Virus record (IMG/VR): IMGVR_UViG_3300038560_000049
Span: 1-40,110 of that record
DNA length: 40,110 nucleotides
From: a virus
Reading direction: 5' to 3' (one strand)
Part shown: positions 3,692 to 40,006 of the stretch, one piece after another
How positions within the stretch are numbered: the first letter of the stretch is position 1
How the letters are laid out: each line of letters starts with the position of its first letter
The notes under the pieces: generated by a model
Seen by the model: only the letters and a program-made list of their open reading frames with translations
The model's database searches: none
Told to the model about the DNA's origin: nothing
Position numbers and translations under genes: made by a program

Positions 3692-3801
3692 TTCCGACTC
3701 CGTGTTTGGGGATGAGGGAATCGGCTAGGCTCGAAAAAGGATTCGGGTCAATACACAATCGGCTGTTGACAATCGTCGCGACTCGAACGATATGATTGGC
3801 C
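3692..3801 (+). promoter_or_regulatory. Divergent control region with a sigma70-like promoter
   Basis: This 110-bp gap separates the leftward replication operon from the rightward HTH gene. On the plus strand TTGACA (3766-3771) is followed after 19 bp by TATGAT (3791-3796), only 5 nt before the HTH gene's ATG. On the minus strand TTGACC (around 3745-3750) is a possible -35 box without a convincing -10. The arrangement resembles a phage genetic switch with a repressor gene on one side and replication genes on the other. Confidence 0.5.
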
Positions 3802-4008
3802 ATGGACCTCTCGATTCCCACGCCAGACGACATTGAAAAAGCCGCAGGCCGTTTGGGTATCTCGGTCGCCTCGCTGTGTCGAAAAGCCGACGTGGCGGCA
3901 GAGCTTTTCTATCGTTGGCGAAAAGGGGGCGCGATTACGACCGCCACACTTTCGCGGCTGCTTGGTGCGATCAGGCAAGCCGAAATGTCCGGCGAGGGGG
4001 ACGAGTAG
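3802..4008 (+). CDS. Small helix-turn-helix regulator, probable leaderless mRNA
   Basis: 68 aa. The segment IEKAAGRLGISVASLCRKADV followed by LFYRWRKGG fits a Cro/CI-like helix-turn-helix with a recognition helix around residues 28-42. The ATG at 3802 lies 5 nt after a TATGAT -10 box and has no Shine-Dalgarno sequence, so the message would be leaderless, as the lambda cI message is when made from PRM. Position opposite the replication operon suggests a role in controlling early transcription. It could instead be an activator. The following gene starts immediately after its stop codon (TAGATG). Confidence 0.65.
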   Translation: MDLSIPTPDDIEKAAGRLGISVASLCRKADVAAELFYRWRKGGAITTATLSRLLGAIRQAEMSGEGDE

Positions 4009-4212
4009 ATGCCAACCGAAATCCGATATCCGTTGTCGTTCTGGATCAGCATCGCGACCGCGCTGATTACAGCAATCGCCGCCGTGGCGCTGCACGGACT
4101 GCTGTTCATATTCATCGTGGCGGATGTAGGCGCCATTCTCGTGTTGCCTGCGGTGTCAAGATACGAGCTGAGGCGCCGCCAGGAAGAAGCTGCAACCCTG
4201 AAAGGATCGTGA
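4009..4212 (+). CDS. Small two-helix membrane protein
   Basis: 67 aa with two hydrophobic segments, about residues 8-28 (SFWISIATALITAIAAVAL) and 30-48 (LLFIFIVADVGAILVLPA). A positively charged tail (YELRRRQEEAATLKG) follows and is probably cytoplasmic. It sits between the HTH gene and the coiled-coil/AAA+ pair on the same transcript, so it could anchor or service that module. No family is recognised. Confidence 0.6.
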   Translation: MPTEIRYPLSFWISIATALITAIAAVALHGLLFIFIVADVGAILVLPAVSRYELRRRQEEAATLKGS

Positions 4213-4213
4213 T

Positions 4214-5797
4214 ATGGCTTTAACAGCTGCACAACTAAAGCCGGTGGAACGCGAGCAGACCCGGCAGCGACCTCAGGCGGCGACGGTCCAAGCGGTTGAG
4301 ACAGAAATATCCGCCAATCCGATCGCGAAGGTCGTTCTTGATCCAGCGGTGCGCGACGACCAGAAGGTGTCGGCGCTCGCAAAGGTGATAACCGCCGAAA
4401 CGCTCAAGGATGTCCAGGCGTTTTCCGCCTATCTGGCGCAGCGGCGTACACTCGCCCAACGTCGGCTCCTGGAACTCACCTCCACGACTGCATTTCCCCG
4501 GCTTCAGAGTGTCATCGGCAGCCTACAGGGCGGCGTGGTCGACTTTGACAAGATGATGCAGCCGATGACGGATGACCTGCAGGCTGCCTTTGATCTGCGC
4601 ACCAACGGACAGATGAACAATGCGATGCGGGAGATCAGCGAGGATCGCGAGAAGGAGGCGGCCTGGTCAACCGAACGCAAGCGCATTGATGCAGAAATCC
4701 AAGGAATCACCAGGGAAAGTGCGCAAATCGAGGTTGATCTCGCGCGGTTGTCTCTCGACAAGAATTGGTTCGGCGCCGTCAAAAAATCGGCGTTGCAAGA
4801 GATCGCCGAAAAACGCATCCGCACCGACCGACTCAAGCAGGACGCTGCGCGACTTGAGCAGGAGAGCATGCGGCTGAGAGATGAGCAGGCAGCGTATCAG
4901 GCCAGGACCGGCGAGTACAAGGCGCAGAAGGAACGTCTGAGACGGATGCTTGATTTGGGGCCTGACTACGTGAAGAAAGTCGAGGCGGTCGTTAGTAAGG
5001 CTATTGACTTCATTGATAGTTCCTCGACAGAGGTCAAAGCGATCCGGGACGAGTTCGATGGTCTCGAAGATCAGGCTACCAACGTCCTGAAAGCTAACGC
5101 CCAGATGGTCCGCGTCACTGCGGTTCTGGATAAGGGAATCGATGGGGCGACGGCCCTTAACAAAGAGCGAGCGCGCGAATTGGCGGTTGCCCCAGAGGGG
5201 GAAGATACGTTGGCGCAGGTGACGCGCACCCAGGAAAAGAACGACGTTGAGCGGTTTGTCAGCGCGCTTTCGGAAACCGCGACGTCGACCAAGAAAAATG
5301 TCTCGGCACTTCAGGAGGACGCGGTCGGCGCCAACAGCTTCGCCCAGGTTGTGTCGCGCCAGCAAACCAACCTACGGGAACTGCATGGCGACGGGATCGC
5401 CAGCATCACCACCAATCTCAACATGGCTCTTCAGGCATTTAATACCGCTGCTCTGACCGAAGCGGGTAATAATGCTTGGCAGGCGATCGGGGATATGAAT
5501 GCGGTCACCAACAAAATTCGCGATAACGAAGTCGTCGCCAGCGCGATGCAGGTCGACGACACCAACCGCCGGATCGTCGAGAAATTCGACTCGCTGGCCG
5601 GTGTCAGCAAGGCGCTTCAGGAGGCCAACAAAATTCGCTCAGACGGGATTTCGAACATCGCCAGCAGCCTTGCGGAACTTGCCGAAAAGACCGCTGAGGT
5701 GCAGCGCGATCTCCAGGTCAACATCGGGCTTGATGTTGTTGGCGCCGTTCCCGCTCCAAGACAGGAGAAAACCCCAGACCTGATGTTGAAAATATGA
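4214..5797 (+). CDS. Long coiled-coil protein, partner of the ClpB-like ATPase
   Basis: 527 aa, almost entirely helical and highly charged. The densest coiled coil runs about residues 138-245 (KEAAWSTERKRIDAEIQG through QESMRLRDEQAAYQ). A second helical region rich in A, N, Q and S covers about 290-510. There is no signal peptide, membrane segment or catalytic motif. It overlaps the ClpB-like gene by 4 nt (ATGA), which implies coupled, stoichiometric production. Known ClpB/ClpV-type unfoldases use adaptor or substrate proteins, so this may be an adaptor, a substrate or a scaffold. A distant resemblance to TelA-type coiled-coil proteins is possible but unproven. Confidence 0.75.
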   Translation: MALTAAQLKPVEREQTRQRPQAATVQAVETEISANPIAKVVLDPAVRDDQKVSALAKVITAETLKDVQAFSAYLAQRRTLAQRRLLELTSTTAFPRLQSVIGSLQGGVVDFDKMMQPMTDDLQAAFDLRTNGQMNNAMREISEDREKEAAWSTERKRIDAEIQGITRESAQIEVDLARLSLDKNWFGAVKKSALQEIAEKRIRTDRLKQDAARLEQESMRLRDEQAAYQARTGEYKAQKERLRRMLDLGPDYVKKVEAVVSKAIDFIDSSSTEVKAIRDEFDGLEDQATNVLKANAQMVRVTAVLDKGIDGATALNKERARELAVAPEGEDTLAQVTRTQEKNDVERFVSALSETATSTKKNVSALQEDAVGANSFAQVVSRQQTNLRELHGDGIASITTNLNMALQAFNTAALTEAGNNAWQAIGDMNAVTNKIRDNEVVASAMQVDDTNRRIVEKFDSLAGVSKALQEANKIRSDGISNIASSLAELAEKTAEVQRDLQVNIGLDVVGAVPAPRQEKTPDLMLKI

Positions 5798-7926
5798 GCG
5801 ATTACCTTATTGCGGGTCCTGACGTTCTCGGGCGGCATCCTGACTTCAAACTCATTGGGCGACAGGAATACTTCACCGATCTGTGCTGTATCCTGACGCA
5901 GAGTACGGCCAATAGCGTTATTGCCTCGGCTCCTGGCGGGGTCGGCGTTTCGGCGTTGGCGCGCAACCTCCAGGCGTGCAAAACTGATCCGACCGCTCCC
6001 TTTGACATCGTGAGCAAGCGTTTTTTCTGGCTGGACACAGATCGCTTGTTCGGGGTGGGAGAAGCGGCGGCCATCGACAAAGAACTGAAGTCTGTGCTGT
6101 CCGTCCTGGCGCGCACCGCAGAGAGCGTGCTGATCGTCGAAGACACGATCGATCTGATCGAGGCGTTGCGTAACTTCAATATGTTACACGTCATCAATGC
6201 GCTGAACGCAATGGTCAAGTCCGGTCGCACGCAGGCATTTCTGGAGGTGCGCGAGAAGGACCTGGGCGAAGTCTATAAGGCGCATTCCGACTTTCGCGAG
6301 CATTATACATTATTTGATGTAAAGGAGCCGACAGACGGCGAACTGAGCCTGATTGTCCATGCTTTAGCCGGAGGCCTTTCCCGAGCCTATGGGATAGCGA
6401 TTGACGCCAAGGCGGTGGACGCCGCCATCAATCTGTCTGATCGGTATCGATCTCTCGACACGGGACTGAACTGTGCGCAACCGGAGCGGAGTCGGCTGCT
6501 GCTGGATCGGGCCATGAGCAAGTATGCGTTAACAGCGCACAGTACTGTTCCTGGGCTCGCGGAAATGGAAGCGTCGCTTCGTCTTGCTTCAGAGACAGAG
6601 CAGATGGCTCTGCGCCGTCGCATTGCTGAGGCTAAAGCGTCATTTGCCGAACGGCAGGGCAAAATCCGAGAGTTTTTCGGTGCGCAGCGAAGCGGCGAAC
6701 GGGCAATCGTTGTTCTGGAAACAGAAATCGCTGACCTTGTGAGTCAGGAGAAAGAAACATCTGCCGCGCGGCCCAGCCGATATGATATCGAGGACCTAAT
6801 TCAGGGAGATGTCACGACCCCAGAGATTGAGCGTAAGCGCGGTCAGGTCGCCGAGTTGGAGCGGGCTGTCGCTCAGAACCGACAGAAATATGAGGCAGTC
6901 ACTGCGGAGATGAACGCGGGTCTGTGTCTGACCGAAAATCCCGTGATCAGCGAGTTTTCGCGAATATCAGGCATCGAGGAAGACAAACTCCGCCAAAACG
7001 ACACGGTTCGCCTTATGAACCTGGGCAACGTCCTGAAAAGTCGAGTGTTCGGGCAAGATGACGCGCTGGAGTACATCTATCGCCGCGTAAAAATCTGGAA
7101 GCGGGGTCGCCGGACCGGCAAGCCGCTGCCATTTATGCTGTGTGGGCCGTCTGGCGTTGGCAAGACCGAAATCTGCCGAGCATTGGCTGAGGGAATGTTT
7201 GACACGGATCGCGCCCTCAATAAGTTCGACATGGGCGACTTCGGGGAGAAAAACGATCTGACCAAGCTGATCGGGGCGCCCCCAGGTTATGACGGATTTG
7301 ATGTTGGCGGCCAAATGACCAACTCGATCCGCAACAATCCCTATCAGGTCATGCTGCAGGATGAAATCGAGAAGGCGCACGCGGACATTTTCAACACCTA
7401 TCTCGGGGTTCTCGATAACGGTTATTGCAAAGACAACATCGGTCGCCTGTGCGAGTTCGGGGACGCCCTCATGCCCTTTACCACGAATATTGGCCAGGAA
7501 CCGATGCTTCGGGTGGGAGAGATTACTGAGGACGAGGCCTACGAACTAACCATGCGGGAGTTGGAAAAGTTCTTCAAGTCGGAATTTCTAAACCGGTTCG
7601 AAGGCAGGGAAAACATTATTGTGCTCAAGGCGCTCGGTCTGGAATCCATCCAACGAATCGCCGAACGCGAACTGGAACGGATCAACGCGTTCTTTGCGCC
7701 CCGTGTTCAGGCTAAATTCCCGGCAGATGATATGAAACGGTTCTGCGCCAGCGTCTATACGCCGAAGATTGGCGCGCGAGGCGTGCCAGGTCGTATCAAG
7801 GCAATCGAGGGCTTCATCGTAGACCAGCAGCTTGCCGATGAAGCCTTCGCTGGCACGATCACGATTACCTACGACGGGGTGGCACTCCGGCCGGACTGGA
7901 AAATATCTCAGGAAATGGCAGCCTAG
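5794..7926 (+). CDS. ClpB-like double-AAA+ ATPase with a degenerate first domain
   Basis: 710 aa. The first AAA region (about 20-240) keeps the ClpB-like IGRQEYFTDL lead-in, but its P-loop at 46-53 reads APGGVGVS, with valine in place of the Walker lysine, and Walker B is LIVED. ATP hydrolysis there looks lost. A helical middle section (about 255-375) resembles a ClpB M-domain-like coiled coil. The second AAA domain is intact: Walker A GPSGVGKT 451-458, pore loop GYDG 498-501, Walker B MLQDEIEKAH 520-529, sensor-1 N565, arginine finger NRF near 600-602, and sensor-2 GAR near 660-662. Such motors thread proteins or disassemble complexes. The partner coiled-coil gene overlaps its start by 4 nt. 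The substrate and role in infection are unknown. Confidence 0.88.
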   Translation: MSDYLIAGPDVLGRHPDFKLIGRQEYFTDLCCILTQSTANSVIASAPGGVGVSALARNLQACKTDPTAPFDIVSKRFFWLDTDRLFGVGEAAAIDKELKSVLSVLARTAESVLIVEDTIDLIEALRNFNMLHVINALNAMVKSGRTQAFLEVREKDLGEVYKAHSDFREHYTLFDVKEPTDGELSLIVHALAGGLSRAYGIAIDAKAVDAAINLSDRYRSLDTGLNCAQPERSRLLLDRAMSKYALTAHSTVPGLAEMEASLRLASETEQMALRRRIAEAKASFAERQGKIREFFGAQRSGERAIVVLETEIADLVSQEKETSAARPSRYDIEDLIQGDVTTPEIERKRGQVAELERAVAQNRQKYEAVTAEMNAGLCLTENPVISEFSRISGIEEDKLRQNDTVRLMNLGNVLKSRVFGQDDALEYIYRRVKIWKRGRRTGKPLPFMLCGPSGVGKTEICRALAEGMFDTDRALNKFDMGDFGEKNDLTKLIGAPPGYDGFDVGGQMTNSIRNNPYQVMLQDEIEKAHADIFNTYLGVLDNGYCKDNIGRLCEFGDALMPFTTNIGQEPMLRVGEITEDEAYELTMRELEKFFKSEFLNRFEGRENIIVLKALGLESIQRIAERELERINAFFAPRVQAKFPADDMKRFCASVYTPKIGARGVPGRIKAIEGFIVDQQLADEAFAGTITITYDGVALRPDWKISQEMAA

Positions 7927-7937
7927 GGAGGCGACAG

Positions 7938-8024
7938 ATGGTAGCGTTTCTGTGTCTCGTTATTGGATTTATCCTGGGGTGGGCAGCTCGTGATATTGTC
8001 GAAATAATGCGCCGAAGTCAGTAG
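7938..8024 (+). CDS. 28-aa micro-membrane protein
   Basis: ATG at 7938 is preceded at good spacing by a strong GGAGG site. The product is one hydrophobic helix (VAFLCLVIGFILGWAA) followed by a basic tail. It sits 11 nt after the ClpB-like gene and is probably co-transcribed with it. It could be a membrane anchor or regulator for that module; this is inference from position only. Confidence 0.55.
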   Translation: MVAFLCLVIGFILGWAARDIVEIMRRSQ

Positions 8025-23542: not shown

Positions 23543-24520
23543 ATGTCATCTCACTTCCTCCTGTCAGCAAAGGCCCGGACGCTCTCTCTGAGCGCCGTTC
23601 TTCGCATGTCAGACGAGGAAGCTGAGGACGCGTTCCGCTCGGTTCGCTGGACAGACGGCAAGGTGATCTGCCCGCACTGCGAATGTCCGATCGTCTACGA
23701 ATGCCGCCGTCCCTCTGGATCGCTCCGGTTCAGGTGCAAGGCTTGCCGAAAGGATTTCAGCATCACGTCCGGCACGATCTTTGCGTTCCACAAGATGCCG
23801 CTCCGCAACTACCTCGCGGCCATCGCGATTTTCGTGAACGAGGTTAAAGGCAAGTCCGCTCTGGCACTTAGCCGAGACCTGTGCGTGCAGTACAAGACCG
23901 CGTTCGTCTTGGCCCACAAGCGGCGGGAAGCGATGGCCAGCGAACTGAAGGGCATGCGGATCGGTGGCCGCGACAAGACGGTTGAGGTCGATGGCGGGTA
24001 TTTCGGCGGATACGTGAAGCCTGCCAACCACCGCGAAAACCGCCGCGACCGGCGCCTCGCCCAAAATCAGAACGGCAAGCGGAAGGTGGTCGTGGTCATG
24101 CGGGAGCGGGATGGCCGCACCCTTCCGGCAGTGTTCCGGTCTGAGTCATCCGCTCTTGGCTTCATCGCCTCCCGCGCGCTGCCCGGCACGTCCATCATGG
24201 CCGATGAGGCCGGATCGTGGAACGAGCTTCATGGCCGGTTCGACGTATCCCGCGTCGATCACAGCAAGCTCTACAGCACTGAGACTGGCGTCTACACGAA
24301 CGGCGCCGAGGAATTTTTCAGCCGGATGCGTCGGGCCGAGATTGGCCACCACCACCACATCGCTGGCGCCTATCTCGTCCGCTACGCTCAGGAAAGCGCC
24401 TGGCGCGAAGATCATCGGCGCATGGATAACGGACGTCAGGTCAACCGGGTAGCAACCCTTGCAATGGCGGCGGCCACTTCGGTAGATTGGTGTGGTTACT
24501 GGCAGCGCGCCGCGAGGTAG
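23543..24520 (+). CDS. IS1595-family transposase
   Basis: 325 aa. The N-terminal zinc ribbon has CPHC (43-46) and CKAC (65-68), followed by the family's FSITSGTIFAFHKMPLRNYL segment. The catalytic domain has VDGGYFGG (Asp about 150), MADEAGSWNELHGRF (Asp about 221) and NGAEEFFSRMRRAE (Asn about 253, Glu about 256), matching the ISXO2-like DDE fold. Full length and uninterrupted. The start could also be the internal MSDEEAEDAF at residue 22. It acts on the flanking 23-bp repeats. Confidence 0.93.
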   Translation: MSSHFLLSAKARTLSLSAVLRMSDEEAEDAFRSVRWTDGKVICPHCECPIVYECRRPSGSLRFRCKACRKDFSITSGTIFAFHKMPLRNYLAAIAIFVNEVKGKSALALSRDLCVQYKTAFVLAHKRREAMASELKGMRIGGRDKTVEVDGGYFGGYVKPANHRENRRDRRLAQNQNGKRKVVVVMRERDGRTLPAVFRSESSALGFIASRALPGTSIMADEAGSWNELHGRFDVSRVDHSKLYSTETGVYTNGAEEFFSRMRRAEIGHHHHIAGAYLVRYAQESAWREDHRRMDNGRQVNRVATLAMAAATSVDWCGYWQRAAR

Positions 24521-27001: not shown

Positions 27002-27227
27002 CCTGTGGCACGTTCTTTGTGGCCACAAACTCTACAAGGTTCGTGTGACGCTGCATTGGGTCGAATCCCCGAATTGGTGCACGATCACCGTTTGCCTCTA
27101 TGCCAGGGATCGTGCACATGCTGCCGCCCGGGCTGTCATTGAGGCGCAGCGTAGCGTCGACGCCACATGGAACAGCGCGAGTGTCGACCACTGCTATCTG
27201 AAGGGCGCCGATGCCATCGCAACGTGA
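26994..27227 (+). CDS. Hypothetical protein before terL
   Basis: 77 aa from GTG 26994, overlapping the previous gene. Starts MPDLWHVLCGHKLYKVRVTL. Beta-rich then helical (RDRAHAAARAVIEAQR). It overlaps terL by 17 nt. Confidence 0.55.
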   Translation: MPDLWHVLCGHKLYKVRVTLHWVESPNWCTITVCLYARDRAHAAARAVIEAQRSVDATWNSASVDHCYLKGADAIAT

Positions 27228-29877
27228 CCTCGACCGCCTGGCCACGCTACTCGCGTCGGTCAGCAAGGACCCATACCAGTTCGTCCTGCTGTGCTTCCCG
27301 TGGGGCGTGGCTGGGACGGAACTGGAGAACCACTTTGGTCCAGATGCTTGGCAAGAGAAGATTCTTAAGGAAATCCGCGACGGACTTAGGACAGTTGATG
27401 AAATCATCAGGGAAGCTGTCGCATCAGGATATGGCGTCGGGAAAAGTGCGCTTGTAAGCTGGATTATTCTCTGGTCAATGTCAACAATGACGGATTGTAG
27501 AGGTGTGGTCACGGCAAATACGGAGACACAGTTAAAAACCAAGACGTGGGCTGAGCTTGCTAAGTGGCATAGGATGTTTATCGGAGAACACATGTTCTCC
27601 ATCACTGCCACATCGATGTATTCTTCGGACCCGAAGCACGAGCGTACTTGGCGCATGGATGCCGTGCCATGGTCAGAGAAAAACCCCCAGGCGTTCCAGG
27701 GGCTTCACAACAAGAACAAGCGCCTTCTACTGATCTTTGACGAAGCGGCGGATATTGCTGATCTGATATGGGAAGCGGCGGAGGGCGCGCTAACCGACTC
27801 AGACACGGAGATTATTTGGGCGGTCTTCGGAAACCCGTCCTTCAACAATGGACGGTTTCGTGCTTGCTTTGGTCGGTACAGCCATCGTTGGAAGACGCAC
27901 CACGTGGATGGTCGGAAGGCCAGGATGTCGAACAAGAAACTGTATGAGGAGTGGGCGGCCGATCATGGCGTGGAATCGGATTACTTCAAGACTCACGTTC
28001 TCGGCCAGTTTCCAGACGCGAGTTCTGGCCAGTTCATTTCGATCAAGGTTGCCGAAGATGCAGCCTCGAAGGAAAGGGATATCCAGCCTACCGTTTATGA
28101 TCCTCTCATTATGGGGGTAGACTGCGCTAGATTTGGTTGTTTTGACGATCAAACCGAAATCCTTACCGACGCTGGGTGGAAACTGTTTTCTGCTCTGGTG
28201 GGGTCCGAGCAGGTGCTTACCTTGAACGGGGACGACGCTGAGTGGGGGCCGATCGAGCAGATCCACTGCTATCCGTTCGTCGGGACCATGAATCTCTATG
28301 AAAGTGTTAGGCTCAATTTCTGCATCACGGACAACCACAAGCTGTTGGTGCGTTCCCACCAGAAGAGCGAGCGATATGTGCTGAGGCGGTATGACGAATT
28401 GCCTGAGGATTATATGGTCCGAGCTTGGTCCAATTGGCGCGGTACGCCGATAGGGCATAAGGAGTTCGTGACGACGAAAGAGATGCCGCACGGTGGCGAA
28501 ATGCTGTACCGCCACACATTCTCTGGGGTCGACTGGTGCGCCTTCATGGGTTGGTTCCTTAGCGAGGGCAGCGTGTACGTAGAGCCTCGCCACAGGGGGA
28601 GGCACCGCGTCTGCATTGCCCAGATGCCCGGAGCGAAGCAGGACCAGATCAAGGATCTGCTCACCAGGATGGGCATTAAGTGGCGGATCGTTCCTGATGG
28701 GCATGTCATAGAGTTTACGAGCAAGTCGATAGGGGCGTATCTCCTTTCGGCTTGTGGCCACGGCGCGGCGAATAAGCGCGTGCCTTGCGAGGTCAAGAAC
28801 GCAAGCCAAGAGGAGATCGAGGCGTTCCTGCTGGCATATCGTCTGGGCGATGGCTGTGCGCATGCTGGCGATACTGGCATTTCCTACTGGACGACCAGTG
28901 CTGGCATGGCGGATGACCTGCAGGAGATGCTTGGCAAGGTCGGGAGGGCAGGTTCGCTTGGCCACAGCCACAGGGCTGGCACGCAATTCATGATCGGGGA
29001 CCGCTCAGTCACGCGTCTCAACGATGTCTACGTGGTGAACGAGCGCAGTCCTGTCGCCAGACAGAACCCCCAAAACAAGAACCGCGATCGCTTCCTCAAG
29101 AAGAGCCATGCCAAGCGTATGCCATACTCCGGCAACGTGTGGTGTGTGTCGACGCCCCATAAAACCATTTATGTGCGCCGAAACGGGAAACCCATGTGGA
29201 GCGGCAATAGCGACCAAAGCGTCATTCGCTTCCGTCGCGGGCGCGATGCGCGGTCGATCCTGCCAGTAAAGTTTCGCAACATCGACACCATGGAACTGGC
29301 AGCGCAGGTATGCGCTCAGTACGACCTCCATCACCCCGATGCTGTCTTCATAGACGTTGGTGGTCCGGGGGCTGGCGTTGTCGACAGGTGCCGCCAGTTG
29401 AGGGTGCCAGTGATCGAGGTCGCATTCGGAAGTCGGGCGTTGCCGCGTCGGGATGAGGGCGCGGGAACCCAGAGTTATTACAATCTCAGGGCACAGATGT
29501 GGGGCCTAATGAAAGATTGGCTTGTCACAGGAATGATTGACGACGATCCGGACCTCATCCGAGATCTCACGAACGTTCAGTACGAGTACCGCGCCTTGGA
29601 GGGGATTGACGCGATCCTTCTGGAGAGAAAAGCCGATATGAGGATGCGTGGATTGGATTCCCCCGACAATGGGGACGCCCTGGCGATCACGTGGGCGTAC
29701 CCCGTACAGTCGTCCGACCACACCGCCATTTTGACCAGTCGGCTCCGCTCGCCCCATGAATCGGAGTACCAACCGATGGGCGAAGCGTGGCGGGTCGGAC
29801 GCAATGAGGGCCAATCCTCGGGCCAGAATACCTGGATGCCGCACGGGGACCGGTGGGTGCCGAGCCGATACCGATAA
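27211..29877 (+). CDS. terL: Terminase large subunit containing an intein
   Basis: 888 aa including a 357-aa intein (310-666). Mature TerL would be about 531 aa. The ATPase domain has Walker A GYGVGKSA (73-80) and Walker B LIFDEAAD (about 174-181). The RNase-H-like nuclease has motif I MGVDCARFG (301-309) with the metal-binding Asp at 304, then FIDVGGPGAG and DNGDALAITWAY as later acidic motifs. Joining the exteins gives VDCARFG-SDQSVIRFRRG, a normal terminase sequence. TerL drives DNA into the prohead and cuts it. AAGGGCG precedes the ATG. Packaging activity should depend on splicing. Confidence 0.93.
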   Translation: MPSQRDLDRLATLLASVSKDPYQFVLLCFPWGVAGTELENHFGPDAWQEKILKEIRDGLRTVDEIIREAVASGYGVGKSALVSWIILWSMSTMTDCRGVVTANTETQLKTKTWAELAKWHRMFIGEHMFSITATSMYSSDPKHERTWRMDAVPWSEKNPQAFQGLHNKNKRLLLIFDEAADIADLIWEAAEGALTDSDTEIIWAVFGNPSFNNGRFRACFGRYSHRWKTHHVDGRKARMSNKKLYEEWAADHGVESDYFKTHVLGQFPDASSGQFISIKVAEDAASKERDIQPTVYDPLIMGVDCARFGCFDDQTEILTDAGWKLFSALVGSEQVLTLNGDDAEWGPIEQIHCYPFVGTMNLYESVRLNFCITDNHKLLVRSHQKSERYVLRRYDELPEDYMVRAWSNWRGTPIGHKEFVTTKEMPHGGEMLYRHTFSGVDWCAFMGWFLSEGSVYVEPRHRGRHRVCIAQMPGAKQDQIKDLLTRMGIKWRIVPDGHVIEFTSKSIGAYLLSACGHGAANKRVPCEVKNASQEEIEAFLLAYRLGDGCAHAGDTGISYWTTSAGMADDLQEMLGKVGRAGSLGHSHRAGTQFMIGDRSVTRLNDVYVVNERSPVARQNPQNKNRDRFLKKSHAKRMPYSGNVWCVSTPHKTIYVRRNGKPMWSGNSDQSVIRFRRGRDARSILPVKFRNIDTMELAAQVCAQYDLHHPDAVFIDVGGPGAGVVDRCRQLRVPVIEVAFGSRALPRRDEGAGTQSYYNLRAQMWGLMKDWLVTGMIDDDPDLIRDLTNVQYEYRALEGIDAILLERKADMRMRGLDSPDNGDALAITWAYPVQSSDHTAILTSRLRSPHESEYQPMGEAWRVGRNEGQSSGQNTWMPHGDRWVPSRYR
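28138..29208 (+). mobile_element. LAGLIDADG-type intein inside terL
   Basis: Residues 310-666 begin with Cys (CFDDQTEILTDAGWK, block A). The block-B-like T-x-x-H is TDNH, and the end is VWCVSTPHKTIYVRR...MWSGN (block F and G with terminal Asn). The +1 residue is Ser. Two endonuclease motifs are visible, CAFMGWFLSEGS and FLLAYRLGDGCA, with acidic residues retained. The penultimate residue is Gly rather than the usual His, which is a known variation but may slow splicing. The insertion lies five residues after the nuclease Asp, a highly conserved site favoured by homing elements. Confidence 0.92.
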
Positions 29878-32103: not shown

Positions 32104-32283
32104 GTGACGGGTAATTCGGAGATCGATCCCGAGATGACTCGCGCGTTTGACCGGTGGTACGAAGCTGCCCGACTGGCCGGACGAGTCGACGCTGAATCGC
32201 TCAAGGGGTTGGCTGAAGCGTTCTATGCTGGCTGGCAGGCGGCCAGCAGGCGCGGCGGCTTTGAACAAGGAACTCACAGTTGA
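32104..32283 (+). CDS. Small hypothetical protein
   Basis: 59 aa from GTG 32104. Contains FDRWYEAARLAGRVDAE and LAEAFYAGWQAASRRGG, the FYAGWQAA element being common in small phage proteins. It overlaps the next gene by TTGA. Confidence 0.55.
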   Translation: MTGNSEIDPEMTRAFDRWYEAARLAGRVDAESLKGLAEAFYAGWQAASRRGGFEQGTHS

Positions 32284-33383
32284 ACCGGTTTCCTGATCCG
32301 CGCCACGAGGCAGCGGTGCATCGGCGCGGTCATCATATCGCGCCCGACGTAACCTCGGTCAGGGTGATCTTCGTCATCCACAAGAACGAGCCGGCCCTTC
32401 CCGGCAGTGAGTCGGGACTGGGCATCACGATCAATTGCGACGTCCGGGTGCTTCGTCAGCATGGCGTCGACGCGCAGAGTTGGGTTCTTCAGAATTTCCA
32501 GCAGCTGTGTCACCGATTGGAAAACGAGGAATACAAATCGCAGCGTCCGATTACTCACCTTGTGGTCTCGACGCCGAATTATCTTCTCCCTCATCAGTTC
32601 GCCGAACTGGCCCAACGGTGGCCCGAGATCGAGTTCATCATGCTGGCCCATACCGGGTTGGCCTATCTGGCGATCGACGATCACGGCCCGGAGCGCATCA
32701 GGGAACTGCTGCACCTCCAACGAGGCACGCACAACTTCAAGGTCGCCGGCAATAATCCTCGGTTCGAGTGGTTCGGTATTTACGGTGTCAGGCCGTTACT
32801 GCTGCCGAACCTTTATGATACCAGCACCTTCGTCGATCTGGTGCACCACCGGAAAGACCACGATCCGCTGCGGATTGGGACGTTCGGCGAAAACCGGCCA
32901 TGGAAAAACCAGGGCATCGCCGCGATGGCGGCACTCAGCATCGCCCGCAAGCTGAACGTTCAACTGGAACTGTTCGTCAACGCTGATCGCTGGCCGCAGA
33001 CCTGGGGACATTCTCAGGCCCGGCAGGAATTGTTCGACGGGTTGCCGTGGGCCAAAATCCATAAGATCGATTGGTTGCCTTGGTCGAAGTTTCGGCAGAT
33101 CGTCAGCACGATGGACCTATGTATCTACCCTTCGTTTGACGAGACCTTTTGCGTAGTCGCCGCCGACGCTGTGGCTGAGGGAGTGCCGTCCGTAGTGACC
33201 TACGCGATGGAATGGGCTCCGCGGTCCTGGCAGGCGCCAGACCCGGCTGACCCCGAGAGTGTGGCAACCGTCGGCATGGCCATGCTGCACAACAGGTCTG
33301 CGGCGGTCCACGATGGACGGCGGGCGTTGACCGACTATGTGGCGGCTGGCGTTCAGCGATGGCTGTTCCACTTAACCCAGTAG
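32280..33383 (+). CDS. Glycosyltransferase (GT4-like)
   Basis: 367 aa from TTG 32280, with AAGGA 8 nt upstream and a TTGA overlap with the previous stop. A GT-B-like fold is suggested by RIGTFGENRPWKNQGIAAMA (about residues 200-220) and the C-terminal nucleotide-sugar site IYPSFDETFCVVAADAVAEG. The latter matches the E-x7-E style GT4 signature in spacing and acidic residues. It probably transfers a sugar to DNA, capsid or a cell-surface glycan. Its pairing with the sulfotransferase-like gene favours glycan decoration. Confidence 0.75.
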   Translation: MNRFPDPRHEAAVHRRGHHIAPDVTSVRVIFVIHKNEPALPGSESGLGITINCDVRVLRQHGVDAQSWVLQNFQQLCHRLENEEYKSQRPITHLVVSTPNYLLPHQFAELAQRWPEIEFIMLAHTGLAYLAIDDHGPERIRELLHLQRGTHNFKVAGNNPRFEWFGIYGVRPLLLPNLYDTSTFVDLVHHRKDHDPLRIGTFGENRPWKNQGIAAMAALSIARKLNVQLELFVNADRWPQTWGHSQARQELFDGLPWAKIHKIDWLPWSKFRQIVSTMDLCIYPSFDETFCVVAADAVAEGVPSVVTYAMEWAPRSWQAPDPADPESVATVGMAMLHNRSAAVHDGRRALTDYVAAGVQRWLFHLTQ

Positions 33384-34994: not shown

Positions 34995-35279
34995 ATGGAG
35001 CCCTGGAGAAGCCGTCTGATCGCCGAACACACGCAACTGTCGGAGCGATTGGCAAAACTCAACGCTGTGCTCGTTACCGGCGGCAAGCCGATTGATCCGT
35101 CCCAACAGCAGACGGCCCTGACGGCTGAGCGCGACGAACTGTCGGGCCGATTAGAGCGGATCAATCAAGCGCTGGTCTCGATCAGCCTACCCGACAAGCA
35201 AGTGACGCTGATGACGCTCCAGGCGTTCGTCATGCAGGACTATCTCGACATTCTGGAAAAGAGGATTGCGCTGCCATGA
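34995..35279 (+). CDS. Small coiled-coil phage protein
   Basis: 94 aa from ATG 34995, with AGGAGATTGACC upstream. EPWRSRLIAEHTQLSERLAK and FVMQDYLDILEKRI enclose a coiled coil. This pattern recurs in short phage proteins of unknown role. It overlaps the peptidase gene by ATGA. Confidence 0.65.
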   Translation: MEPWRSRLIAEHTQLSERLAKLNAVLVTGGKPIDPSQQQTALTAERDELSGRLERINQALVSISLPDKQVTLMTLQAFVMQDYLDILEKRIALP

Positions 35280-36307
35280 CCGTCCATCCGTACATCAAGA
35301 GGCCGCGTTCGGTGGTTAACCAACCCTGGGACGTACCGGCCCTGGCAAAGCGCTACCAATGGCCTACAGGACTGCCTGGAGGCGGCGTTATTGCTGTCGT
35401 GGAGTGCGGCGGTGGTTGGCTCAACAGTGACCTTCTTCGGTTCTGCCACGCCAGCAGTGTCGCGGTCCCGACTGTCATTGACGTTCCGCTCGACCTGACG
35501 AATGCGCCGGGCAAGTCCGATGCTGACGGCGAGGTTGCACTTGATATCGAGGTCGCTGCCGCCTCTTATTTTGCTGCCACCGGAAAAGCGGCGACGATCC
35601 GGGTGTACTGGGCTTCCGACATTGGTCAAGGCATTCAGAAGGCGCACCGGGACGGCTGCGACGTGTGTTCCGTCTCGTGGGGCGACGATGAGGCACAGTG
35701 GGGCGGAGAAGCCCTGTCAGCCCTTGGAGACGTGACAAGGGCGGCGGCTCAGGGCGGTATGATCACGTTCGCCGCAGCGGGTGACAACGATTCCTCCGAC
35801 GGAGGGCCAGGCGCGGTCAACGTCGATGCCCCGGCAAGCGCCCGGTACGTCATTGGATGCGGAGGCAGCAGCCTACCACAGAGCGGCCAGGAGACTGTGT
35901 GGAATAACAATCCAGGAAATGCCGACGGCGAAGGTACGGGCGGCGGTTATTCGACCTTCTATCCGTCTTGCGCCTGGATGAACGGCGCTCCGGTCGGCAC
36001 GGGTCGTATGGTTCCTGATCTTGCAGCAAATGCTGATCCGAACACCGGCTACAATGTCGTGATCGCGGGCCAGGTCGAGGTGGTCGGCGGGACATCTGCG
36101 GTGGCTCCTCTTTACGCCGGTTTGTTCGCGGCGTTCGGCCGGAAACTGGCGCCGATCGGACCGAAGATTTGGTCCAATCATCTGGCGTTCACCGACATCA
36201 CACAGGGGAACAACGGCAAGTATGCTGCCCGCGTTGGTCCCGACCCATGTACCGGACTTGGTAGCCCGATCGGCACCAAACTGGCCGCGCTGTTCGTGAA
36301 GGCCTGA
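35276..36307 (+). CDS. Sedolisin-type (S53) serine-carboxyl peptidase
   Basis: 343 aa. The S53 triad is visible: Glu86 and Asp90 in GEVALDIEV, oxyanion Asp170 in AAAGDNDSSDGG, and Ser274 in VGGTSAVAPLYAG. The C-terminal calcium site is FTDITQGNNG...GPDPCTGLGSP. No N-terminal pro-domain and no signal peptide are present, unlike most sedolisins. The gene follows a small phage protein by ATGA overlap in the late operon. The enzyme might mature virion proteins or act on the host envelope. S53 peptidases usually work at acidic pH. Confidence 0.9.
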   Translation: MTVHPYIKRPRSVVNQPWDVPALAKRYQWPTGLPGGGVIAVVECGGGWLNSDLLRFCHASSVAVPTVIDVPLDLTNAPGKSDADGEVALDIEVAAASYFAATGKAATIRVYWASDIGQGIQKAHRDGCDVCSVSWGDDEAQWGGEALSALGDVTRAAAQGGMITFAAAGDNDSSDGGPGAVNVDAPASARYVIGCGGSSLPQSGQETVWNNNPGNADGEGTGGGYSTFYPSCAWMNGAPVGTGRMVPDLAANADPNTGYNVVIAGQVEVVGGTSAVAPLYAGLFAAFGRKLAPIGPKIWSNHLAFTDITQGNNGKYAARVGPDPCTGLGSPIGTKLAALFVKA

Positions 36308-36730: not shown

Positions 36731-36802
36731 GGGGAGCCCGCTGGGTCGGTGCTGTTCCTTGCAAGAACGGTTAGCGGAGTTCAATCCTCCGGCTCTCCAC
36801 CA
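36731..36802 (+). tRNA. tRNA-Ala (TGC)
   Basis: 72 nt. Acceptor GGGGAGC/GCTCTCC, anticodon loop CTTGCAA, canonical T-loop TTCAATC, encoded CCA. First gene of the array. Confidence 0.85.
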
Positions 36803-36806
36803 ATAT

Positions 36807-36881
36807 GCGGCTTGTGCGCGATGGTTTGCGTCCCTCCTTGCCATGGAGGATCAGCGGGTTCGATTCCCGCAGGCCGCTCCA
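36807..36881 (+). tRNA. tRNA-Gly (GCC)
   Basis: 75 nt. Acceptor GCGGCTT/AGGCCGC, anticodon stem CCTCC/GGAGG around TTGCCAT, T-loop TTCGATT, encoded CCA. Confidence 0.9.
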
Positions 36882-36887
36882 AATAGA

Positions 36888-36980
36888 CGGCGTCGGCTCA
36901 GGTGAGCGGCGGACTCTTATAAAGTCTGGAGAACGGGAGATACCCGTAACGGCCGGGATCGTTACCCGGGACGCCGACCA
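36888..36980 (+). tRNA. Class II tRNA, anticodon TAT by position (identity uncertain)
   Basis: 93 nt. Acceptor CGGCGTC/GACGCCG plus A-CCA. Anticodon loop CTTATAA gives TAT (isoleucine, AUA). A long variable arm contains ACGGG/CCCGT, normally a Ser, Leu or Tyr trait. The D-arm is tiny (GCTC-AGGT-GAGC) and the T-loop is ATCGTTA. Charging identity is unclear. Confidence 0.55.
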
Positions 36981-36983
36981 GAT

Positions 36984-37056
36984 AGCGGGAAGCTCAGGGT
37001 GGCCGCCGCGGCTCATAACCGCCGGCATGATGGTTCGATTCCATCTCCCGCTACCA
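36984..37056 (+). tRNA. tRNA with CAT anticodon (Met or Ile2)
   Basis: 73 nt. Acceptor AGCGGGA/TCCCGCT, loop CTCATAA, T-loop TTCGATT, encoded CCA. The A1-T72 pair argues against an initiator. Elongator Met versus lysidine-modified Ile2 cannot be separated here. Confidence 0.85.
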
Positions 37057-37058
37057 AT

Positions 37059-37134
37059 GCCCAGGTGGTGTAGTTGGCCTGCACGTGATCCTGAAGAGAT
37101 TGAGGTAGTCGTTCGATGCGACTCCTGGGCACCA
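37059..37134 (+). tRNA. tRNA-Phe (GAA)
   Basis: 76 nt. Acceptor GCCCAGG/CCTGGGC, loop CTGAAGA, T-loop TTCGATG, encoded CCA. Confidence 0.9.
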
Positions 37135-37140
37135 GATTTC

Positions 37141-37214
37141 GCGGACGTGGCGTAATGGCAGCGTTTCAGTCTTCCAAACTGATGGCGAGAGTTCGAATCT
37201 CTCCGTCCGCACCA
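37141..37214 (+). tRNA. tRNA-Gly (TCC)
   Basis: 74 nt. Acceptor GCGGACG/CGTCCGC, stem TCAGT/ACTGA around CTTCCAA, T-loop TTCGAAT, encoded CCA. Confidence 0.92.
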
Positions 37215-37215
37215 A

Positions 37216-37293
37216 TGGCATCTAGCACTCAGGGTGAGCGCGCTCGGCTGTTAACCGAGATTGAGACTGGTTCGATCCCAGTGGTGCCAGCCA
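37216..37293 (+). tRNA. tRNA-Asn (GTT)
   Basis: 78 nt. Acceptor TGGCATC/GGTGCCA, stem CTCGG/CCGAG around CTGTTAA, T-loop TTCGATC, encoded CCA. Confidence 0.9.
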
Positions 37294-37297
37294 GTTT

Positions 37298-37371
37298 GGG
37301 GGTAAAGTGTTACGGCAGCACTATCGGCTCCAACCCGATCAGATGGCGTTCAATTCGTCATACCCCTGCCA
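37298..37371 (+). tRNA. tRNA-Trp (CCA)
   Basis: 74 nt. Acceptor GGGGGTA/TACCCCT, stem ATCGG/CCGAT around CTCCAAC, T-loop TTCAATT, encoded CCA end. Confidence 0.88.
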
Positions 37372-37376
37372 GAATT

Positions 37377-37452
37377 GTTCCGCGAGGAAGCAAGCGAATC
37401 CCCCTGATTGCAAACCAGGTGCGGCCCGGGGCGGTACCGGGGCGGAACTCCA
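37377..37452 (+). tRNA. tRNA-Cys (GCA)
   Basis: 76 nt. Acceptor GTTCCGC/GCGGAAC, loop TTGCAAA, non-canonical T-loop GGCGGTA, encoded CCA. Confidence 0.82.
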
Positions 37453-37459
37453 ACTTGAT

Positions 37460-37535
37460 GGTGGGTGTGGTGAACCAGAGGACACGTTCCCCTGTGAAGG
37501 GAAAGCAGCGAGGCCAGCACTCGCCATCCACCCCA
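37460..37535 (+). tRNA. tRNA-His (GTG)
   Basis: 76 nt including encoded G-1 opposite C73, the histidine identity pair. Acceptor GTGGGTG/CATCCAC, stem TTCCC/GGGAA around CTGTGAA, non-canonical T-loop GCCAGCA, encoded CCA. Confidence 0.85.
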
Positions 37536-37538
37536 AAT

Positions 37539-37613
37539 GCCGACATCTTCCAGTGGCAGGAAAATCCCCTTGTAAGGGATGAACGGAGGTTCGATCCCAT
37601 CCTGTCGGCACCA
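37539..37613 (+). tRNA. tRNA-Thr (TGT)
   Basis: 75 nt. Acceptor GCCGACA/TGTCGGC, stem ATCCC/GGGAT around CTTGTAA, T-loop TTCGATC, encoded CCA. Confidence 0.9.
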
Positions 37614-37616
37614 GAT

Positions 37617-37690
37617 ATCGGAGAGGGCGGGACGCCCACGCGCGGCTCTGAACCGCGTCGTCTTCTGTTCGAGTCAGAACTCCGGTGCCA
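37617..37690 (+). tRNA. tRNA-Gln (CTG)
   Basis: 74 nt. Acceptor ATCGGAG/CTCCGGT, stem CGCGG/CCGCG around CTCTGAA, T-loop TTCGAGT, encoded CCA. Confidence 0.88.
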
Positions 37691-37693
37691 GAT

Positions 37694-37765
37694 GGCGGGC
37701 AGCGCAGGCGCGCGAGCGTGGCTTTGACCCACGCGATGATGGTTCAATTCCGTCGCCCGCTGCCA
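37694..37765 (+). tRNA. tRNA-Gln (TTG)
   Basis: 72 nt. Acceptor GGCGGGC/GCCCGCT, stem CGTGG/CCACG around CTTTGAC, T-loop TTCAATT, encoded CCA. Confidence 0.88.
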
Positions 37766-37785
37766 CTTAACCAAGGAGACTGCAC

Positions 37786-38055
37786 ATGACGTCAACGATC
37801 ACCGTGAGTGCTCACCCGGTCCCTCCCAACACCGCTGTTGAGGTACACGCTTACGACGATAAGGGGATGAGTCAGATATACATTCTGGAGAACGGTGCCA
37901 TCCACTCTTTTACAATCAGTGGCGTTCAGGCCGTCCACGTTCATGAGAGCAATGCGATCATGGTAGCGCCGTATGAGCCTGCGCCAGTGCCAGAAGCCGC
38001 ACCGTCTGACCAGCCAACGGTCGATCCCACTTCGGCCCTTTCGACCACAGGTTAA
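37786..38055 (+). CDS. Small hypothetical protein within the tRNA array
   Basis: 89 aa with AAGGAG seven nt before the ATG. Starts MTSTITVSAHPVPPNTAVEV; beta-rich to about residue 60, then a Pro/Ala-rich acidic tail. Its last 22 nt are also the 5' end of tRNA-Glu (38034-38055), so processing of that tRNA would cut the message. No family is recognised. Confidence 0.75.
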   Translation: MTSTITVSAHPVPPNTAVEVHAYDDKGMSQIYILENGAIHSFTISGVQAVHVHESNAIMVAPYEPAPVPEAAPSDQPTVDPTSALSTTG

Positions 38056-38108
38056 GTCGTCACCCTCTCAAAGTGAAGAACCGGGATCGTTACCCGGAAG
38101 GGCCACCA
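38034..38108 (+). tRNA. tRNA-Glu (CTC), overlapping the preceding gene
   Basis: 75 nt. Acceptor GGCCCTT/AAGGGCC, loop CTCTCAA, non-canonical T-loop ATCGTTA, encoded CCA. The 5' 22 nt lie inside the coding gene 37786-38055. Confidence 0.8.
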
Positions 38109-38111
38109 CTT

Positions 38112-38187
38112 GCGGACGTAGCCCAACGGCAGAGGCGACGAACTTAAAATCCGCAAAGCAGGGGTTCGAGTCCCCTCGTCCGCACCA
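38112..38187 (+). tRNA. tRNA-Leu-like (TAA), class I shape
   Basis: 76 nt. Acceptor GCGGACG/CGTCCGC, loop CTTAAAA, T-loop TTCGAGT, encoded CCA. The variable loop is only about 5 nt, unlike normal bacterial tRNA-Leu. The anticodon stem pairs poorly. Confidence 0.7.
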
Positions 38188-38192
38188 AGTTA

Positions 38193-38269
38193 ACCCGCGT
38201 AGCCCAACGGTAGGAGGCATCTGTCTTAGGAACAGAGCAGTGTCCGTTCGAATCGGACCTGGGGTACCA
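38193..38269 (+). tRNA. tRNA-Leu-like (TAG), class I shape
   Basis: 77 nt. Stem TCTGT/ACAGA around CTTAGGA, T-loop TTCGAAT, encoded CCA. Acceptor ACCCGCG/CTGGGGT has two mismatches. Short variable loop. Confidence 0.72.
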
Positions 38270-38273
38270 ATAT

Positions 38274-38361
38274 GGAAGACGCTCGCTATGTGGATGGCAG
38301 CTGGTCTTGAAAACCAGAGGGGACCGCAAGGTCAGGGGTTCGACTCCTCCGTCTTCCGCCA
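38274..38361 (+). tRNA. tRNA-Ser (TGA)
   Basis: 88 nt, class II with a long variable arm. Acceptor GGAAGAC/GTCTTCC, stem CTGGT/ACCAG around CTTGAAA, T-loop TTCGACT, encoded CCA. Confidence 0.9.
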
Positions 38362-38365
38362 TTTT

Positions 38366-38450
38366 GGATGATACAGCCAGTAAGGTTGCTGGGCTTCCCT
38401 GCTAAGGAATGCGCGCCTCACGGCGTTCGGATCGTACCCGAGGTCATCCG
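38366..38450 (+). tRNA. tRNA-Ser (GCT), no encoded CCA
   Basis: 85 nt, class II. Acceptor GGATGAT/GTCATCC, loop CTGCTAA, T-loop ATCGTAC (non-canonical). The 3' end reads G-TCG, so CCA must be added by an enzyme. Confidence 0.78.
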
Positions 38451-38454
38451 TCGT

Positions 38455-38528
38455 GCACTCGTAGCTCAACGGTAGAGCAGCGCGTTGGTATCGCGCCGAC
38501 CACGGATCAACACCGTGCGAGTGCTCCA
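38455..38528 (+). tRNA. tRNA-Thr (GGT)
   Basis: 74 nt. Acceptor GCACTCG/CGAGTGC, stem GCGCG/CGCGC around TTGGTAT, non-canonical T-loop ATCAACA, encoded CCA. Confidence 0.85.
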
Positions 38529-38532
38529 ATTT

Positions 38533-38615
38533 GGGTTGGGAAAGTCGGTGGCTCCGACACCGAGTCTGTAAAACTCGTCCGTAAGGGAGTGGATCGAAAC
38601 CACACCAACCCACCA
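38533..38615 (+). tRNA. tRNA-Tyr (GTA)
   Basis: 83 nt, class II. Acceptor GGGTTGG/CCAACCC, stem CGAGT/ACTCG around CTGTAAA, non-canonical T-loop ATCGAAA, encoded CCA. It directly abuts the next tRNA. Confidence 0.87.
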
Positions 38616-38688
38616 TGCTTTGTTCGTTCAATGGCAGGACACGCGCCCGATAAGCGCGGAACCCTGGTTCGATCCCAGGACGAAGCAT
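38616..38688 (+). tRNA. tRNA-Ile (GAT), no encoded CCA, C33
   Basis: 73 nt. Acceptor TGCTTTG/CGAAGCA, stem CGCGC/GCGCG around CCGATAA (C instead of T at position 33), T-loop TTCGATC. The 3' end is T-TTA rather than CCA. Confidence 0.8.
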
Positions 38689-38697
38689 TTAAATCAC

Positions 38698-38775
38698 GGG
38701 CCAGATGCGATCACTGGTGTGCGCGGCGGTCTTTTAAACCGTGTCAATGGTTGGGTTCGATTCCCACCTGGCCCA
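38698..38775 (+). tRNA. tRNA-Lys (TTT), no encoded CCA
   Basis: 78 nt. Acceptor GGGCCAG/CTGGCCC, stem GCGGT/ACCGT around CTTTTAA, T-loop TTCGATT. The 3' end is A-TCA. Confidence 0.82.
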
Positions 38776-38781
38776 TCAATT

Positions 38782-38857
38782 GCCCCAGATTCTCCCTGGT
38801 GGGGGTCTCGGCTTGTCAAGCCGATGTTGGCGGGATCGTAACCCGTCTGGGGCGCCA
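38782..38857 (+). tRNA. tRNA-Asp (GTC)
   Basis: 76 nt. Acceptor GCCCCAG/CTGGGGC, stem TCGGC/GCCGA around TTGTCAA, non-canonical T-loop ATCGTAA, encoded CCA. Confidence 0.87.
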
Positions 38858-38862
38858 TCTAA

Positions 38863-38933
38863 CTCCGCGGCGACGATCGCAGGCTGGTTTCCTAAACCGG
38901 CACTTGGTGGGTAAGCACCACCCGCGGGGACCA
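38863..38933 (+). tRNA. tRNA-Arg (CCT)
   Basis: 71 nt. Acceptor CTCCGCG/CGCGGGG, stem CTGGT/ACCGG around TTCCTAA, non-canonical T-loop GTAAGCA, encoded CCA. Confidence 0.82.
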
Positions 38934-38939
38934 AATTCC

Positions 38940-38968
38940 TTGATGTTTTGATCCGAATTATCTATATC
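38940..38968 (+). promoter_or_regulatory. Promoter directly before the HNH gene
   Basis: TTGATG (38940-38945), 17-bp spacer, TATATC (38963-38968), then ATG 6 nt later with no Shine-Dalgarno site. The HNH gene thus seems to carry its own promoter and produce a leaderless mRNA. Confidence 0.5.
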
Positions 38969-38974
38969 AAACCT

Positions 38975-39559
38975 ATGAAGAAGTGCCCCCGCTGCAAGCA
39001 AACGCTTCCGCTTACTGAGTTCAAAAAACGCCCTAACGGAGGTCCTGACGCCTATTGTAAGCCATGCAGGCACGAATATGACGCCGACTACCATTGGGTT
39101 AGACGACATGAGGTGAACGAAAGACGGAAAGGAAGGATCAAAGAACGTCGTGTTTTTCTAAGGAATTTCTTTGAGGAAGTGAAAGATGTTCCTTGTCTCG
39201 ATTGCGGCGTCCGATACCCTCCGTACGTCATGCACTTTGATCATCTATCCGATAAGGTGTTTAACATATCGAACGCCAGCAGCCTGGGCGTCAGCATGTC
39301 GAGGCTTCGTGCGGAGATAGCAAAGACTGAAATCGTGTGCGCGAATTGTCATGCGATCCGCACTCACAAACGAAGAACGGAGTGTAACTCATTGGCAGAG
39401 GGCCGAGCTTGGGACTCGGAAGCAGGTGGTTCGATTCCACTCACTCCGACCATTACCGAGGGCGACGCGGAGGAAAGTAATCCGCCGGTCCTACAAACCG
39501 GAAGACGCGGGGCAGTACCGCGGTCGCCTACCAATTCCTCCCATTCGTTCACCAGCTAG
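38975..39559 (+). CDS. HNH endonuclease whose frame runs through tRNA genes
   Basis: 194 aa from ATG 38975. An N-terminal zinc module (CPRCKQTLPLTEFKKR...YCKPC) is followed by the HNH domain: CLDCG, MHFDHLSDK, then KTEIVCANCHAIRTHKRR ending at residue 134. This is a free-standing homing-type nuclease common among phage tRNA genes. From residue 135 (39377) the reading frame enters tRNA-Pro, crosses tRNA-Val and stops in tRNA-Glu. The last 60 residues are therefore encoded by tRNA sequence, which suggests the original stop was lost on insertion. Confidence 0.82.
   Translation: MKKCPRCKQTLPLTEFKKRPNGGPDAYCKPCRHEYDADYHWVRRHEVNERRKGRIKERRVFLRNFFEEVKDVPCLDCGVRYPPYVMHFDHLSDKVFNISNASSLGVSMSRLRAEIAKTEIVCANCHAIRTHKRRTECNSLAEGRAWDSEAGGSIPLTPTITEGDAEESNPPVLQTGRRGAVPRSPTNSSHSFTS
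39378..39452 (+). tRNA. tRNA-Pro (TGG), inside the HNH reading frame
   Basis: 75 nt. Acceptor CGGAGTG/CACTCCG, stem CCGAG/CTCGG around CTTGGGA, T-loop TTCGATT, encoded CCA. Confidence 0.88.
39460..39533 (+). tRNA. tRNA-Val (TAC), inside the HNH reading frame
   Basis: 74 nt. Acceptor GGGCGAC/GTCGCCT, stem CCGGT/ACCGG around CCTACAA (C33), non-canonical T-loop GGCAGTA, encoded CCA. Confidence 0.78.
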
Positions 39560-39612
39560 GATCATCGCCTTTCAAGCGGTGGAAGTGGGGGCAGCACCCA
39601 CATGGGAGACCA
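39538..39612 (+). tRNA. tRNA-Glu (TTC)
   Basis: 75 nt. Acceptor CTCCCAT/ATGGGAG, stem ATCGC/GCGGT around CTTTCAA, non-canonical T-loop GGCAGCA, encoded CCA. Its first 22 nt overlap the HNH frame. Confidence 0.82.
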
Positions 39613-39616
39613 ATAT

Positions 39617-39691: not shown

Positions 39692-39696
39692 TCTAC

Positions 39697-39768: not shown

Positions 39769-39771
39769 GAT

Positions 39772-39846: not shown

Positions 39847-39849
39847 AAT

Positions 39850-39926: not shown

Positions 39927-39929
39927 AAT

Positions 39930-40004: not shown

Positions 40005-40006
40005 AC

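Follow-up and report, generated by a model that had tools for sequence, protein, structure and literature searches.

In bacterial Hsp100 motors, both rings are as a rule active in ATP hydrolysis. What, then, might a phage do with a motor of this type whose first AAA domain is dead, and whose gene overlaps that of a long coiled-coil protein? This question is raised by a linear IMG/VR virus record (IMGVR_UViG_3300038560_000049), the 40,110 bases of which are referred to here as the window. The original prediction was in part upheld: in all 14 members of the clade, window included, a phage-specific motor of the Clp/Hsp100 type has an inactivated first AAA domain, and its gene is accompanied by that of a coiled-coil protein. 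Our main finding is the anatomy of this module, which is well supported: an inactive first domain (D1), a second domain of active type (D2), a coiled-coil protein (hereafter the coil) and a membrane-protein gene. As to its function, the explanation that we favour is that the locus encodes a protein-remodelling machine that is accessory to the phage, is tethered to the membrane and has a coiled-coil partner of its own, a reading that we hold tentatively, as plausible and somewhat short of probable.

Layout of the locus

On the plus strand of the window, five ORFs form a nearly gapless run between positions 3796 and 8024 (Table 1). The coordinates and lengths first given for the coil and ATPase genes, and the 4 nt that they share (ATGA), proved exact on re-checking. 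Upstream of the coil gene, the 67-aa ORF begins immediately past the stop codon of the HTH ORF and matched no family in family profile searches; the HTH ORF itself scores 18.0 bits against Pfam HTH_26, under the 22-bit cut-off. The genes adjoining the run encode DnaB, RusA, a DnaQ-like exonuclease, RecT and RecE and, as these are replication and recombination functions, the run probably lies in an early-type region. Sigma-70-like elements can be seen by eye 5' of the HTH ORF (TTGACA at 3766-3771 and TATGAT at 3791-3796, with a 19-nt spacer); a promoter at this place was not reported by the promoter scan, whose spacer range was 16-18 nt. In base composition, the module does not stand out from the window. 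In the window the HTH ORF opens the run, but no HTH gene was seen beside the module in other carriers.

Table 1. Genes of the run and motifs of the ATPase in the window
Feature	Position	Strand	Remarks
Small HTH ORF (Cro/C1-type-like)	3796..4008	+	First gene of the tight run; likely start ATG 3802
67-aa hydrophobic ORF	4009..4212	+	One or two membrane helices; window-specific
527-aa all-helical coiled-coil gene	4214..5797	+	Gene from which the module was first defined; protein ends in ...LMLKI
710-aa Hsp100/Clp-type AAA+ ATPase	5794..7926	+	Pseudo-D1 and active-type D2; lacks N-domain and ClpP loop
D1 Walker A remnant APGGVGVS (K to V)	5929..5952	+	Residues 46-53
D1 Walker B remnant Glu116-Asp117	6139..6144	+	E. 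coli ClpB has Asp278-Glu279 there
D2 Walker A GPSGVGKT, intact	7144..7167	+	Residues 451-458
D2 pore loop GYDGF	7285..7299	+	Residues 498-502
D2 Walker B Asp523-Glu524, intact	7360..7365	+	
D2 arginine finger Arg601, then module-specific insert ending in invariant Arg605	7594..7608	+	
28-aa hydrophobic ORF	7938..8024	+	Window-specific; occupies the place of the ~250-aa membrane protein of other carriers

Elsewhere in the window, the terminase large subunit is epsilon15-like (27211-29877), and its sequence is split by an intein-like insert that contains a LAGLIDADG_3 domain. An IS1595-type transposase is encoded at 23543-24520, and a transposase related to it lies directly upstream of the module in contig L099 (8788-9708, minus strand), a possible route of mobility. 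The window also holds a cluster of 25 tRNA genes (36731-40080), not usual in phages whose terminase is epsilon15-like, an ORF for a protease of the Subtilase family (S8, possibly sedolisin-like; 35276-36307), members of which are rare in phages as far as we know, and, at 32280-33383, a weak similarity, below cut-off, to glycosyltransferase group 1 / GT4-conflict.

Conserved loss of the first ATPase site

The window ATPase belongs to the Clp/Hsp100 AAA+ superfamily, as judged from its score of 128 bits against Pfam AAA_2. It is not a ClpB equivalog: its score against TIGR03346 is 256 bits, for a cut-off of 1232, and among the features of that equivalog it has the middle region of about 150 residues and lacks the D1 motifs with their arginine fingers and the Clp_N domain. 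Its top PHROG match is an 'ATP-dependent protease' family (4871; E 1.8e-121), and its best match among solved structures is T. thermophilus ClpB (1qvr). In a quick tree, the 14 module ATPases form a single clade of phage Hsp100/Clp proteins with a support of 100; no member has a longer branch than the window ATPase, the placement of which within the clade is unsure. The label 'ClpB-like' first given to the protein thus fits its architecture but not its position in the tree, which is outside ClpB and ClpA proper. PADLOC matches of the ATPase to PDC-M37B and DolB span the generic D2 only and were set aside.

Motifs were compared in an alignment of the 14 module ATPases with 88 other Clp proteins, including E. 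coli ClpB and ClpA, ClpA-like proteins from jumbo phages and a further 79 matches from viral contigs. The replacement of lysine by valine in the first P-loop of the window ATPase, noticed at the outset, was confirmed, and an alanine also replaces the first glycine. All 14 module members have C, V, A, I, R or T in place of this lysine, which is kept in 88 of the 88 other proteins. Moreover, throughout the clade (14/14) D or N replaces the glutamate of the D1 Walker B motif, both D1 arginine fingers (RR) are lost and D1 has no pore loop, owing to a deletion. In D2, on the other hand, K611, E678, R756, R815 and an aromatic residue at 653 (E. coli numbering) are kept in every member, and the complete set of catalytic and pore motifs claimed for the window is indeed present, R662 being intact together with those of Table 1. 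Only 42 to 63 residues precede the P-loop in the clade, versus 205 in E. coli ClpB, which leaves no Clp_N domain, and the region between D1 and D2 spans 116 to 175 residues, versus 155 in ClpB and 37 in ClpA. None of the 14 proteins has the ClpP-binding IG[FL] loop; the ATPase should therefore remodel, disassemble or extract its substrates rather than feed them to ClpP.

Mean pairwise identity within the clade is 0.56 for D1 and 0.61 for D2 (0.47 and 0.42, respectively, for the window ATPase against the other members). As D1 is conserved about as well as D2, it appears to be a retained pseudo-ATPase rather than a decaying domain, and we infer from this sequence conservation that it has a scaffold or regulatory role. 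The motif pattern would be compatible with a double-ring hexamer having, like Pex1/Pex6, an inactive D1 ring and an active D2 ring.

A constant coil and a nearly constant membrane protein

Among 50,697 phage records, both proteins were found in only one, that of the 490-kb Agrobacterium jumbo phage Atu_ph07. There the homologues (40% identity for the ATPase and 25% for the coil) are adjacent and in the same order, which argues that the pairing in the window is not due to chance. Further relatives were collected by profile searches of IMG/VR, iterated via the coil, the ATPase and a third gene, described below. The coil was found in 15 contigs, window included, and it lies upstream of the ATPase in all 14 that show both genes (the window and 13 others), which represent about 13 independent cases because L106 and L107 are close relatives. 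The fifteenth contig, L111, ends just past the coil; L011 and L094, cut upstream, show the end of the ATPase and the third gene. That the ATPase might occur without the coil had been raised as an objection to the pairing, and no such case was found in the 14 contigs showing both. The spacing of the two genes ranges from a 4-nt overlap (window and L099) to 2.6 kb (L100), and the coil, the ATPase and the membrane gene are the only families common to the neighbourhoods of the carriers.

The third gene encodes a membrane protein of about 250 aa and lies 3' of the ATPase in all carriers with enough downstream sequence but the window; the contig of L108 ends before this point. Nearly all members have a single hydrophobic span (L104 adds a second, N-terminal one), and two C-terminal cysteines are conserved. 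Basic residues precede the span, which suggests an N-in, C-out orientation. The protein has no known family in Pfam or PHROGs; its model is of low confidence (pLDDT 69), and a fold search with the C-terminal domain of this model gave consistent but weak OB-fold matches, on which we place no weight. The micro-membrane proteins expected to flank the coil-ATPase pair do exist in the window, but they are not conserved, as no homologue was seen in the neighbourhoods of other carriers; the constant membrane partner is the ~250-aa protein, which the window lacks.

Genomic setting and virion assembly

The eight large carriers are jumbo phages of the T4 type, as judged from the gp23 capsid protein that each of them encodes. 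In such phages the module could be a virion assembly chaperone, the coil being a scaffold, tape-like or internal head protein that the ATPase and the membrane protein assemble or eject. A role in virion assembly has been proposed for AUZ95251.1, the ClpA of Atu_ph07 that belongs to the clade (PMC7824862), and the fold matches of the coil include generic tail tape-measure and SMC helices. Gene location nevertheless makes this option, already present in the original prediction, unlikely: in 8/8 large carriers some 33 kb at least separate the module from the gp23 gene, and no capsid, portal or tail family occurs among the top 25 neighbour families of the PHROG and Pfam tallies. Furthermore, among phage isolates the coil and membrane genes are found in Atu_ph07 only, and not in RaK2-type phages or in Sinorhizobium phage Phosso, and the terminase of the window is of an unrelated type. 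Virion proteomics exist for Atu_ph07 (PMC6102473), and the module proteins might yet be present in its particles.

Named families among those tallied include nicotinamide salvage, RNA ligases, Thg1 and SPFH. Nicotinamide salvage genes (NAMPT, NMN adenylyltransferase, PnuC) lie near the module in L101, L109, L102 and L108, and a DnaJ-like and vWA-like gene pair was seen by eye upstream of it in two related phages (L100, 6631-8602; L103, 7326-9283). The window differs from the other carriers in its epsilon15-like terminase, its long ATPase branch and its lack of the membrane protein, which suggests that the coil-ATPase pair has moved between phage lineages.

The coil and its relation to the motor

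The AF2 model of the window coil is all-helical and of modest confidence (pLDDT 73). Nothing credible was found for the coil family in Pfam or PHROGs or, for the window coil, in NCBIfam and PADLOC, so that the concern that it might belong to an unrelated known family was not substantiated. No close relatives of the window's own coil were found. Neither did a bacterial or plasmid origin emerge: there was no match in plasmids or in 84,980 species genomes, the latter scan relying on short conserved patterns and thus not being proof of absence. Fold searches in viral and PDB libraries returned generic coiled coils with low TM-scores. At the C terminus, after a variable linker (L098-L111), stands a tail that reads [PAS]F[KGN][LFIVN] in 13 of the 15 coil homologues and LKI in the window and L111, and that looks like a short recognition motif. 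Across phages, the evolutionary distances of coil and ATPase are correlated with r = 0.90, a value as high being reached in 0 of 5000 permutations, and one that shared phylogeny alone could yield.

A disassembly pair of the ClpV kind, in which the coil would polymerise into a filament or a sheath-like structure and the ATPase would recycle it, could account for the long helices of the coil model and for a conserved tail suited to serve as a recognition tag, and constant gene association with matched motor and partner distances is known for ClpV also (PMC4239648). However, the coil is all-helical and shows no relation to sheath proteins or to any family, and the clade, unlike ClpV, has neither a working D1 nor an N-domain; we consider such a pair quite unlikely.

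We doubt still more that the module serves general proteostasis, as an extra disaggregase helping the infected cell under stress. This role was proposed for the Atu_ph07 ClpB (PMC6102473), and a ClpB-type architecture with its middle region and without the ClpP loop agrees with it, as do the DnaJ-like genes close by in two carriers. For a general disaggregase, however, there would be no need of an orphan coil that is always present, or of a membrane protein; the ATPase has also lost its N-domain and the pore loop of D1, and several carriers already have another Clp protein, an ordinary ClpA-like one being encoded in 4 of the 6 carrier records searched. Finally, it is hardly credible that the coil is a sub-membrane protein of the TelA family and the cassette a Ter-like superinfection barrier, as similar helical make-up, membrane context and the occurrence of TelA in jumbo phages might suggest, since the TelA profile (PF05816) finds nothing in 6 carrier records and the profile-profile probability of coil and TelA is 0.1% (for a TelA alignment of 4 sequences).

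Proposed function

In the accessory remodelling machine that we favour, the ATPase would be an Hsp100-type double ring, of which the first ring acts as a non-hydrolysing scaffold and the second threads the substrate. The coil would be its dedicated partner, either an adaptor bringing clients or itself a polymer being disassembled; the invariant gene association, the matched evolutionary distances and the conserved C-terminal tail all point to such a partnership. In most carriers the single-span protein may tether the machine to the inner membrane, as gene order and topology suggest. Tethering cannot be general, as the window is without this component, and it is a speculation that the two micro-membrane ORFs substitute for it there. 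The location of the module and its patchy distribution suggest that it is accessory, outside head assembly, and that its probable use is in conflict, either with the host or between phages that compete, a view that rests partly on unannotated neighbours; the host takeover or anti-defence roles of the original prediction are conjectural. Taken together, the protein sequences support a motor that threads its substrates without proteolysis, by means of a single working ring, and that has a partner of its own.

As the cassette spans very different phages, some of them among the largest (one contig has 607 kb), whatever it acts on probably matters to infection in general. A clade with a conserved dead first ring also offers a natural test of what D1 does beyond hydrolysis, and the two orphan partners are ready candidates for clients, adaptors and anchors.

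Comparison with known systems

The jumbo phages RaK2 and Serratia phage BF likewise encode Clp ATPases, but their ClpA-like proteins keep the D1 motifs and lie among structural genes; RaK2 ClpA differs from the module ATPases in that about 225 residues precede its P-loop and its middle region is short, and several carriers encode both kinds. The Atu_ph07 ClpB (gp492, AUZ95251.1) is, in contrast, a true clade member, with the coil adjacent and the membrane protein nearby; going by the order of accessions, these two would be gp493 and gp488, respectively. The published accounts of this phage (PMC6102473, PMC7824862), as accessible to us, annotate the ATPase only and describe neither the dead D1 nor the cassette. 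More generally, existing annotation as phage ClpB or ClpA hides the dead D1, the orphan partners and the cassette.

Like ClpB/Hsp104, the module ATPase has two AAA domains, a middle region of ClpB length and an intact D2 with its pore tyrosine, and no ClpP loop. Unlike them, it has no N-domain and no D1 pore loop, its D1 is dead in every catalytic motif, an extra insert stands beside the D2 arginine finger, and it forms a separate clade with a dedicated coil gene. ClpV keeps both P-loops and its N-domain. The module resembles it in that a Clp-type motor is linked, at the level of the genes, with its cognate partner (PMC4239648), and differs in that the coil is unrelated to sheath proteins and that there are no secretion genes near the module, neither sheath nor T6SS genes being present among the common neighbours or the neighbour families listed.

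Pex1/Pex6 combines an inactive D1 ring, with degenerate Walker and arginine-finger motifs, with an active D2, and is recruited by the tail-anchored Pex15 (PMC10518020). With its dead D1, live D2 and putative membrane tether, the module would resemble this system, which we regard as the closest working analogy. The two are not homologous at the family level: Pex1/Pex6 is a heterohexamer of two AAA proteins with N-domains, whereas the module consists of a single Clp-type gene and a coiled-coil partner. It is possible, and we suggest it with some reserve, that the module represents a kind of phage machine not described before, in which an Hsp100 motor with a pseudo-D1 is tethered to the membrane and has its own coiled-coil client or adaptor. 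During infection it would extract or dismantle, at the inner membrane, particular complexes of the host or of rival phages, and it would have converged on Pex1/Pex6.
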